From Nocardioides okcheonensis (GTDB lineage Bacteria > Actinomycetota > Actinomycetes > Propionibacteriales > Nocardioidaceae), in assembly GCF_020991065.1 (NCBI RefSeq), contig NZ_CP087710.1:930001-994000 (forward strand): 64,000 nt of DNA, in the 5' to 3' direction. Numbering within the stretch: the first letter of the stretch is position 1; the number at the start of each line of letters is the position of its first letter. Of the stretch, positions 51,249 to 55,094 are shown piece by piece. The notes beneath the pieces were generated by a model. That model saw nothing but the letters and a program-made list of their open reading frames with translations. It made no database searches and was not told where the DNA came from. The position numbers and the translations under genes were made by a program.

Positions 51249-52526
51249 ATGAGCGCCGACCAGCAGTCCCAGGCCGACCCGACCCCCGGCGCGAACGCCT
51301 GGGGTCGCGTGGCCGAGGACGGCACCGTCTATGTCCGCACCGCCGATGGCGAACGATCCGTCGGGTCCTACGAGGCCGGCACGCCGGCCGAGGCCCTGGC
51401 GTTCTTCACCAAGCGCTTCGACGAGCTGGAGGGCAAGGTCCGCCTGCTCGAGCAGCGCGTCGCGTCCGGACGTCTGGCGCCGGAGGAGGCCGGCTCCTCG
51501 ATCAAGTCGCTGCGCGAGCAGGTCGTCGACGCCCACGCCGTCGGCGACCTCGTGTCGCTCGCCGCCCGCCTCGACGCGCTCGCACCGGTGGTGGCCGCCC
51601 AGCGCTCCGCCCGCAAGGAGGAGCGTGCCCAGAAGAGCGCGGAGGCCAAGGCGCAGAAGGAGCAGCTGGTCGCCGAGGCGGAGAAGCTCGCCGCCGGCAC
51701 GGACTGGCGCAACGGCGCCAACCGGCTGCGCGACCTGCTCGCCACGTGGAAGGAGCTGCCCCGGCTCGACCGGGCCACCGACGACGCGCTCTGGCGGCGG
51801 TTCTCGACCGCCCGCACCACCTACACCCGCCACCGCAAGGCGCACTTCGCCGAGGAGCACGAGCGCCGCGACGGTGCCCGCGTGGTCAAGGAGCGCCTGG
51901 CCACCGAGGCGGAGGCTCTCGCCACCTCCACCGACTGGGGCCCGACCGCCGGCCGCTACCGCGACCTGATGCGCGAGTGGAAGGCCGCCGGCCCCGCACC
52001 GCGCGAGGTCGACGACCAGCTCTGGCAGCGCTTCCGCGGGGCCCAGGACACGTTCTTCGGCGCCCGTGACGCCGCCAACGCGGCCCTCGACGAGGAGTTC
52101 GCCGCCAACGCCGAGGTCAAGGACGCGATCCTCGTCGAGGCCGAGGCGCTCGTCCCGCTGGCCCAGGCGGGCGGGGCCGACCTCGAGGCGGCCAAGAAGT
52201 CCTTCCGCGACCTCGCCGACCGCTGGGACGCCGCCGGCAAGGTCCCGCGCGACCGGATGAAGGAGCTCGAGGGCCGGATGCGCAAGGTCGAGCAGGCCAT
52301 CCGCGCCGTCGAGGACGAGCAGTGGAGCCGCAGCGACCCGGAGAAGTCCGCGCGCGCCGACGACATGATCGCCAAGCTCGAGGCGGGCATCGCCGAGACG
52401 CAGGCCAAGCTCGACAAGGCCACCGCCGCCGGCGACGACCGCAAGGTCAAGGACCTCGAGTCCGAGCTCGCCAACAAGCAGGCCTTCCTCGACATGGCCC
52501 GCAAGGCCGCCGCCGACTTCGGCTGA
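51249..52526 (+). CDS. DUF349 domain protein
   Basis: 425 residues, highly charged and helical. A short beta-rich start (AWGRVAEDGTVYVRTADG) is followed by several DUF349 repeats of about 70-75 residues, each with a Trp-Lys core such as LATWKELPRLDRATDDALWRRF and LMREWKAAGPAPREVDDQLW, given here in part. The end is a coiled coil. The function is unknown; it is conserved in actinobacteria next to rel and the hisS region. Only its stop codon touches the 31-bp repeat array. Confidence 0.9.
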   Translation: MSADQQSQADPTPGANAWGRVAEDGTVYVRTADGERSVGSYEAGTPAEALAFFTKRFDELEGKVRLLEQRVASGRLAPEEAGSSIKSLREQVVDAHAVGDLVSLAARLDALAPVVAAQRSARKEERAQKSAEAKAQKEQLVAEAEKLAAGTDWRNGANRLRDLLATWKELPRLDRATDDALWRRFSTARTTYTRHRKAHFAEEHERRDGARVVKERLATEAEALATSTDWGPTAGRYRDLMREWKAAGPAPREVDDQLWQRFRGAQDTFFGARDAANAALDEEFAANAEVKDAILVEAEALVPLAQAGGADLEAAKKSFRDLADRWDAAGKVPRDRMKELEGRMRKVEQAIRAVEDEQWSRSDPEKSARADDMIAKLEAGIAETQAKLDKATAAGDDRKVKDLESELANKQAFLDMARKAAADFG

Positions 52527-52800
52527 CCGGGCACTTCCTCGCGCTGGCGAGGCCCGACCGGGCACTTCCTCGCGCTGGCGAGGCCCCACCGGGCACTTCC
52601 TCGCGCTGGCGAGGCCCCACCGGGCACTTCCTCGCGCTGGCAGCGGCGCCACAGCGCGAGGAACTGCCCGCTCGGCACGATCCAGCGCGACGAAGCGCCC
52701 GCTCGGCGTGATCCAGCGCGACGAAGTGCCCGCTCGGCGTGATCCAGCGCGACGAAGTGCCCGCTCGGCACGATCCAGCGCGAGGAAGTGCCCGCTTGGC
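52526..52800. repeat. Array of nine 31-bp units, four direct then five inverted
   Basis: The core GGGCACTTCCTCGCGCTG occurs at 52529, 52560, 52591 and 52622, exactly 31 bp apart. After a 12-nt gap its reverse complement (with small changes) starts at 52652, 52683, 52714, 52745 and 52776, again 31 bp apart. The 13-nt parts between cores differ between the two orientations. Each of the first three forward copies also contains CCTCGC-GCTG-GCGAGG, a small hairpin. 31 is not a multiple of three, so no frame is preserved. The array fills the whole gap between the convergent DUF349 and rel genes. Confidence 0.93.
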
Positions 52801-52805
52801 GGGGG

Positions 52806-55094
52806 CTACGCGGTGACGCGGTAGGCGTCGAAGACGCCCGGCACGGCGCGTACGGCCCGGAGCACGCCGTCGAGGTGGGCGGCGTCGGCCATCTCGAAGG
52901 AGAACCGGCTCTTGGCGACCCGGTCGCGGGTGGTGGAGAGGGTCGCGCTGAGGATGTTCACGTGGGCGTCGGAGAGCGCCATCGTGATGTCGGAGAGCAG
53001 GCGCGCCCGGTCGAGCGCCTCGACCTGGATGTTGACCAGGAACGTGGTCTGCGACGTGGGCGCCCACTCGACCTCCAGCACCCGCTCGGGCTGGTTGAGC
53101 AGGCTGGCGGCGTTGGTGCAGTCCTTGCGGTGCACCGACACCCCGCCGCCCTTGGTGACGAAGCCGAGGATCGGGTCGGGCGGGACCGGGGTGCAGCACT
53201 TGGCGAGCTTGACCCACAGGTCGTCGACGCCGCGGACGATCACGCCGGCGTCGGTCGGGCCGGGCTTGGCGGCGCGCGAGCGACCGGTGATGGTGACGCC
53301 CTCGGCGAGGTCCTCGGCCGCGCCGTCGTCGCCACCGTGCAGGTCGATGACCCGGCGGACCACGGCCTGGGCGCTGAGGTTGCCCTCGCCGACCGCGGCG
53401 TAGAGCGCGGACACGTCGGCGTGGTGGAAGTGCTCGGCCACCAGGGCCAGCACGTCGTGGGTCATCAGCCGGTTGAGGGGCAGGCCCTCCTTGCGCATGA
53501 GCTTGGCGATCTGGTCCTTGCCGCGCTCGATCGCCTCCTCGCGGCGCTCCTTGGTGAACCACTGGCGGATCTTGGAGCGGGCGCGCGGCGACTGCACGAA
53601 GTTGAGCCAGTCGCGCGAGGGGCCGGCGGTGGGCGCCTTGGAGGTGAACACCTCGACGACGTCGCCGTTGTCGAGGGTGGACTCCAGCGGGACCAGGCGG
53701 CCGTTGACCCGTGAGCCGATCGTGTGGTGCCCGACCTCGGTGTGCACGGCGTAGGCGAAGTCCACGGGGGTCGAGCCGGCCGGGAGCGGGATCACGTCGC
53801 CGCGGGGCGTGAAGACGTAGACCTGCGCCTGGTTCATCTCGAAGCGCAGCGACTCCAGGAACTCCCCCGGGTCCTCGACCTCGCTCTGCCAGTCGAGCAG
53901 CTGGCGCACCCAGGTCATGTCGTCCCGGTCGCCGAGCTTGTCGGTGTCGACGCCCGCCTTGTTGTTCTCCTTGTACTTCCAGTGCGCGGCGACGCCGTAC
54001 TCGGCGCGACGGTGCTGGGAGAAGGTCCGGATCTGCACCTCGACCGGCTTGCCCTGCGGGCCGATCACGGTCGTGTGCAGCGACTGGTACATGTTGAACT
54101 TCGGCATCGCGACGTAGTCCTTGAACCGCCCCAGCACCGGGTTCCACCGCGAGTGGATGACGCCGAGCGCGCTGTAGCAGTCGCGGTCCTCGTCGACGAG
54201 GATCCGGATGCCGACCAGGTCGTAGATGTCGGAGAAGTCGCGGCCGCCGACGATCATCTTCTGGTAGATCGAGTAGTAGTGCTTCGGGCGCCCGGTCACC
54301 TTGGCGTTGATCTTCGACGACTTGAGGTCGGCCTCGATGTCGGAGACCACCTCGGCGAGGAACTGGTCGCGCGAGGGCGCCCGCTCGGCCACCATCCGGA
54401 CGATCTCGTCGTAGATCTTCGGGTGGAGGGTCGCGAACGCGAGGTCCTCGAGCTCCCACTTGAGGGTGTTCATGCCGAGCCGGTGGGCCAGCGGGGCGTA
54501 GATGTCGAGCGTCTCGCGCGAGGACCGCTCCTGCGAGGCCGCCGGGACGTAGCGCAGGGTGCGCATGTTGTGCAGCCGGTCGGCCAGCTTGATGACGAGC
54601 ACCCGGATGTCGCGGGCCATCGCCACGATCATCTTGCGGATCGTCTCGGCCTGCGCCGAGTCGCCGTACTGGACCTTGTCGAGCTTGGTGACACCGTCGA
54701 CCAGCAGCGCGACCTCGTCACCGAAGTCGGCGCGGAGCTCCTCGAGCGTGTAGGGCGTGTCCTCGACCGTGTCGTGCAGCAGCGCCGCGACCAGGGTCGG
54801 CTCGGTCATGCCGATGTCGGCCAGGATCGTCGTCACCGCGAGCGGGTGGGTGATGTAGGGGTCGCCGCTCTTGCGCATCTGGCCGGTGTGCCACTTGTCG
54901 GCCACGTGGTACGCGCGCTCGAGCAGCGCCAGGTCGGCCTTGGGGTGGTTGGCCCGCACCGCGCGGAACAACGGCTCCAGCACGGGGTTCGACGACGGCG
55001 GCCGGGTGCCGACCCGGGCGAGCCGGGCGCGCATGCCGCGAGCGGTCAGCGGGGCCGACCTCGTCTCCTGCGCGGGCCCCTGCTCCTCTGCCAT
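52806..55094 (-). CDS. relA: Bifunctional (p)ppGpp synthetase/hydrolase Rel
   Basis: 762 residues. The HD hydrolase domain (His83, His107-Asp108 in [13 protein letters not shown]) appears intact. The synthetase domain has [13 protein letters not shown] and [11 protein letters not shown]. The TGS domain ([20 protein letters not shown]) is followed by a zinc-finger-like region ([15 protein letters not shown]) and a C-terminal ACT domain. It makes and degrades the stringent-response alarmone at the ribosome. It follows apt by 57 bp, the usual actinobacterial order. Confidence 0.96.

Follow-up and report, generated by a model that had tools for sequence, protein, structure and literature searches.

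The window, a stretch of 64,000 nucleotides from Nocardioides okcheonensis (contig NZ_CP087710.1, positions 930,001 to 994,000), contains a convergent gene pair, DUF349 and rel, and Pfam confirms both genes as originally predicted. Between them lies an array of short repeats in two facing arms. The features are given below, with positions counted from the first letter of the window.

51249..52526, + strand: DUF349 gene (Pfam PF03993, 1.1e-53), with the C-terminus DMARKAAADFG, then stop
52524-52526: TGA stop codon of the DUF349 gene, which doubles as the YGA of forward unit 1
52524..52546, + strand: forward unit 1 (TGACC box and core)
52555..52577, + strand: forward unit 2
52586..52608, + strand: forward unit 3
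52617..52639, + strand: forward unit 4
52640..52651, no strand: 12-nt centre between the arms (centre step 30)
52652..52674, - strand: inverted unit 1 (innermost)
52683..52705, - strand: inverted unit 2
52714..52736, - strand: inverted unit 3
52745..52767, - strand: inverted unit 4
52776..52798, - strand: inverted unit 5 (outermost, degenerate box), 12 nt from the rel stop codon
52806..55094, - strand: rel (RelA/SpoT) gene, stop codon TAG at 52806-52808 (Pfam HD_4, RelA_SpoT, TGS, ACT)

Between the last base of the DUF349 stop codon (52526) and the start of the rel stop codon (52806), the gap measures 279 bp. It is filled by an 18-nt core that occurs four times in forward and five times in inverted orientation, the first core lying 2 nt past the DUF349 TGA and the last ending 12 nt before the rel TAG. 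The coordinates confirm the nine cores at 31-bp steps first described: forward cores start at 52529, 52560, 52591 and 52622, inverted cores at 52652, 52683, 52714, 52745 and 52776, with all same-strand steps at 31 bp (7/7) and a centre step of 30 bp. All four forward cores are exact; among the inverted ones, one is exact, three carry one mismatch and one carries two. The same repeats also appear as two tandem arrays of period 31. Conservation extends beyond the 18 nt of the core: a YGASC box joined to the core forms an asymmetric motif of about 23 nt, which with some 8 unconserved nt makes up one unit. As predicted, the linkers of the forward arm differ from those of the inverted arm, and no reading frame is kept in the array because 31 is not divisible by 3. 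The predicted central hairpin needs refining: the centre of this array is a 12-nt loop and not an abutting palindrome.

Is the array a peculiarity of the rel locus? A genome-wide search for the core, which the original prediction had proposed, gave 66 matches with at most 2 mismatches (versus 1 for a reversed-pattern control) and about 12 array loci, in which forward units are followed by inverted ones or one arm stands alone. With at most 1 mismatch, the core was matched in 25/147 genomes of the genus, 11 of which have at least 7 matches and 14 one or two. A longer motif matched in 86/294 genomes of the family; 13, all of the same genus, have at least 5 matches, and no genome outside the genus has more than 2. 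Of the 62 stretches of GTDB contigs that match an exact tandem pattern, 61 bear the title Nocardioides and one comes from an Actinomycetota MAG; the pattern had no match in viral contigs. Similar arrays exist in 13 relatives, and the family occurs at some 38 different loci. The array is thus one of a Nocardioides-specific family of gene 3'-end repeat arrays. The original prediction had allowed that the core might be absent from all relatives and the array an assembly artefact; relatives do carry the core, and orthologous arrays in separate assemblies rule the artefact out. A plasmid or phage origin was likewise rejected, as the array has no match in plasmids or phages. No RNA family in Rfam matches the array up to an E value of 1, and a literature search of limited scope brought no evident published account of such arrays to light. 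The proposal of a variable-number repeat beside rel survives insofar as unit number varies between orthologous loci; the family shows no tie to rel.

The arrays are closely associated with the ends of genes. According to gene calls made with a custom script, 97/159 clusters lie between convergent genes, 60/159 between tandem genes (rplY-pth is an example) and 2/159 in gaps called divergent, one of which (L108) probably reflects a missed gene; 157/159 thus sit at gene 3' ends in convergent or tandem gaps. At 116/221 gene ends that run in the same direction as the units, the core begins exactly 2 nt after the stop codon, and all 116 of these stops are TGA; at a further 73/221 the core follows after 5-17 nt. 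The C-terminus of DUF349 is alike with and without arrays, which indicates that the stop codon predates the array. Beyond a one-arm array adjoining pyrG, two strong hairpins unrelated to the units were observed (L031:5247-5320).

The DUF349-rel gap itself differs among relatives. We found 30 rel loci, 28 of them readable. Units of the kind described above (family A) occupy the gap in G000, the genome of the window, and in G007; a palindromic 31-bp variant is present in G045 and G095, and an array with a 32-bp step and the core CGAGTCGGCGCA (family B) in G021 and G074. In each of these six genomes DUF349 ends in TGA, and the array begins at this stop codon. Such arrays are missing from the remaining 22 readable loci, although G070 has a single stray B-like match. 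The corresponding gap of G112 (L243:2386-2746) contains several GGACACGTGTCC palindromes that bear no relation to either family. Family B arrays lie at L224:2392-2602 and L239:2386-2636; the family is widespread, with at least 10 matches in 27/147 genomes of the genus, its centres are too mixed, and its core too nearly palindromic, for phasing to be read from unit orientation. Mutual exclusion of the two families was considered and dropped: 10/11 A-rich genomes have at most 5 B matches, but given 27/147 B-rich genomes overall this is not significant. Palindromic variant units, GGGCACTTCGTGCCCGTC, were seen at L235:1356-1454 (in 31-bp steps) and L229:1321. Nine distinct units of this type were collected; 6/9 end in CCCGTC, an ending that canonical units do not have. 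They are a possible link between REPs and family A.

To describe the arrays we used 149 stretches fetched from the genome itself and 13 relatives (window included), which hold 650 units. Clusters for fetching were picked by eye, with isolated weak matches left out, and those of G083 and G286 were chosen among the matches listed; two fetched stretches, L043 and L217, contain no array. Across this set, 371/380 same-strand steps are exactly 31 bp, the remaining nine being 32 (four), 62 (two), 63, 30 and 33. Inverted units precede forward ones in no cluster of the 149 stretches, so that the arms always face each other; one-arm arrays also occur. The YGASC box at -5 to -1, which played no role in selecting units, is 96-99% conserved, and core identity is 0.87-0.96 (0.87-0.88 between different loci). 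Identity of the 8-nt linkers is 0.86 inside one arm, 0.39 when the two arms are compared and 0.51 between orthologous loci; between different loci it is 0.46, against 0.46 expected from composition. As the linkers are at composition level and the 31-bp step is exact, linker sequence is free while linker length is not.

The distance across the centre, measured between the last core of the forward arm and the first of the inverted arm, is likewise restricted. Among 111 two-arm clusters it is mostly 18-20, 29-31 or 40-42; most centres of 40 conceal a degenerate unit at 9, and centre steps of at least 40 contain whole 31-bp units. Taken modulo 31, 107/111 centres fall within 9-11, 18-20 or 28-31, residue classes that were defined after the data had been seen and that are spaced about one helical turn apart. 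The off-lattice centres are 23, 68, 95 and 96. A Rayleigh test with period 31/3 and one value per ortholog group gave R 0.80 and p 1e-9 (n=32). The best-fitting periods are 10.65-10.90, not 10.33, which counts against an explanation by protein phasing. The centre class switches between species in ortholog groups 6, 8, 10, 23 and 25, and the window locus has a centre of 30 where its ortholog in G007 has 19. Taken together, the centre distances argue for helical register, albeit from related loci that are not independent of one another.

Could this regularity be a mere by-product of copying? Selfish REP-like repeats with no host role might have been inserted at TGA stops and expanded by slippage. 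Their fusion to TGA stops, their patchy distribution and the fact that another family takes their place in the corresponding gap of some relatives would all suit such elements. Still, many array loci are common to several species, and cores that are 0.88 identical beside linkers at composition level, with no change in linker length, look like the product of selection. Moreover, the Y1/RAYT transposase (PF01797) was found in 0/12 genomes tested, while 5/14 control genomes were positive; a RAYT-driven REP was rejected on this ground, and the result speaks against the selfish reading, which we regard as quite unlikely. Even if selfish, the arrays would represent a REP-like family without a RAYT.

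A different account invokes nucleic acid structure. The original prediction had put forward a very long hairpin, as a cruciform or in RNA, that could end both transcripts; more generally, a transcript entering the inverted arm might fold and have its 3' end terminated or protected, and the array would act as a bidirectional terminator or an mRNA-stabilising REP. The location at gene 3' ends is in keeping with this, and the palindromic variant units at some loci fit REPs or hairpins better than protein phasing. The predicted fold of the array is strong (z -8.7 and -11.9), a trivial score since inverted repeats pair anyway. As for covariation, at centres of 18-20 (51 arrays) the innermost pair of units is more alike than shuffled pairs (z 5.5) and the outer pair is not (z -1.2); in the 26 arrays with centres of 29-31, the class of the window array, neither pair is (innermost z 0.0, outer z -1.3), and the 7 arrays with centres of 40-42 give no signal. 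Counting core positions 4-5 in pairs that are not both consensus, identical innermost pairs amount to 22/32 at centres of 18-20 versus 1/12 at 29-31 (Fisher p 5e-4), and identical outer pairs to 1/22 and 0/11. Collapsed by ortholog group, the values are 13/23 and 1/11 for innermost pairs, and 1/21 and 0/11 for outer pairs.

Covariation is thus limited to innermost units that flank a tight centre and gives no sign of selection for a giant hairpin. Local covariation of tight palindromes is also produced by quasipalindrome template switching, as passages of PMC7202029 describe, and this process explains the signal at tight centres; a short functional hairpin at such centres is the alternative. 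A stem requires neither centres spaced by one turn nor an exact 31-nt step, and the existence of one-arm arrays also counts against it. No intrinsic terminator (hairpin and U-tract) was detected at 52300-53000, nor, as noted, an Rfam match. Foldable as the array is, the long hairpin originally envisaged thus gains support neither from a U-tract nor from covariation in the 29-31 class, and we consider the structural account unlikely.

Of the three ideas originally advanced, phased binding of a protein, with 31 bp as about three helical turns, is best supported, through the exact step with composition-level linkers and the quantised centres; the protein is putative. We tentatively favour, at somewhat less than even confidence, that the arrays are REP-like repeats without RAYT whose units, mostly non-palindromic, are phased asymmetric sites. 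At the 3' ends of genes these sites would bind this protein and might in this way present RNA polymerase with a polar barrier. Such arrays may have originated at TGA stop codons, where they would have been inserted or have grown in a REP-like manner, again without RAYT. A sequence-specific DNA-binding protein would sit on the units along a single helical face, with head-to-head contact between the two protein-bound arms. As a weaker inference, the bound array might act as a boundary with polarity. On its way out of a gene, RNA polymerase would pass that gene's own units and halt at units of opposite orientation, so that neither convergent gene would be read into by the other; an array with a single arm would protect no gene but the one that precedes it. 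A non-polar roadblock at a stop codon would halt RNA polymerase inside the gene, hence any transcription-blocking array should be polar. Such polarity would fit one-arm arrays and tandem cases such as rplY-pth; the polar barrier is the weakest step of the argument.

An AbiEi-like gene (L032:5059-6057, - strand), the one conserved neighbour tested for a link to the arrays, is flanked on either side by an arm of the pgl/rbpA array; it occupies this position in 8 genomes, with 68-78% identity, and has no Pfam family and a weak PADLOC match to AbiEi (E 3e-7). It was rejected as the protein or transposase of the arrays, as it does not track them (9/14 array genomes, 5/17 others).

One observation that the protein-boundary model does not explain, and that counts against it, is the location of array loci on the same side of dnaA: 12/12 in G000 (loci L031-L041 and the window), 15/16 in G121 and 7/9 in G088. 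The arrays might instead organise a chromosome arm, as sites for a nucleoid or topology protein needed on one replichore. Positive supercoils collect in convergent gaps, and gyrase acts on the REP/BIME of E. coli. The loci are orthologous, however, so that the three genomes are not independent; the gene content of the arm may account for the bias, and this account, too, relies on a putative protein. We deem it very improbable.

Phased binding can be extended to an undescribed bacterial boundary system in which a polar site of about 23 bp is recognised by a protein that assembles along one DNA face every three turns, and in which two facing assemblies dock in helical register at gene ends and so insulate transcription units; specificity would shift between A (31-bp) and B (32-bp) among lineages, implying a co-evolving protein. 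This fuller version we hold to be rather unlikely. If true, a protein-made, sequence-coded gene boundary would join the few known ways of separating convergent genes in GC-rich bacteria, in whose genomes U-tract terminators are scarce. The arrays offer natural controls, since forms with one arm and with two, centre classes that differ by one turn and two alternative families all occur, and the gap at a given locus can also be empty.

How do the arrays compare with known systems? They are not a CRISPR, as originally stated: CRISPR spacers are unique and of about repeat length, whereas here only 8 nt are free and these are 0.86 identical within an arm. Asymmetric sites are shared with Tus-Ter and the yeast Rap1/Reb1 roadblocks, and passages of PMC10310618 report orientation-dependent roadblocks for Rap1 and dCas9; the Nocardioides sites differ in forming tandem facing arrays, with a cognate protein that is only putative. 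The MIRUs of mycobacteria, whose unit contains an ORF coupled to the gene beside it, are likewise actinobacterial tandem intergenic repeats tied to a gene-boundary codon. PMC12548453 describes them as ORF-bearing elements with start codons as their insertion sites, unlike the arrays, which sit at stop codons, have a 31-bp unit with no frame or ORF, and form two facing arms. The closest likeness is to REP/BIME (GTAG and CGTC superfamilies), with which the arrays share short clustered repeats, location in gaps, opposite orientations and the supply of stop codons; according to PMC3733652, REPs cluster in gaps flanked by convergent or tandem genes, occur in both orientations and have a terminal tag that often supplies the stop codon. 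REP/BIME units are imperfect palindromes, whereas canonical units here have no shared intra-unit stem (the 9 variants excepted), and the exact 31-bp step, free linkers and phase-locked centres set the Nocardioides arrays apart. REP/BIME bind gyrase, Pol I or IHF; CGTC REPs have a CGTC tag beside an 8-9 bp stem and no dedicated transposase. As canonical units are non-palindromic and no Y1 transposase was found in the 12 genomes tested, the arrays are not classed as REP members and are a new variant within the REP-like kind.
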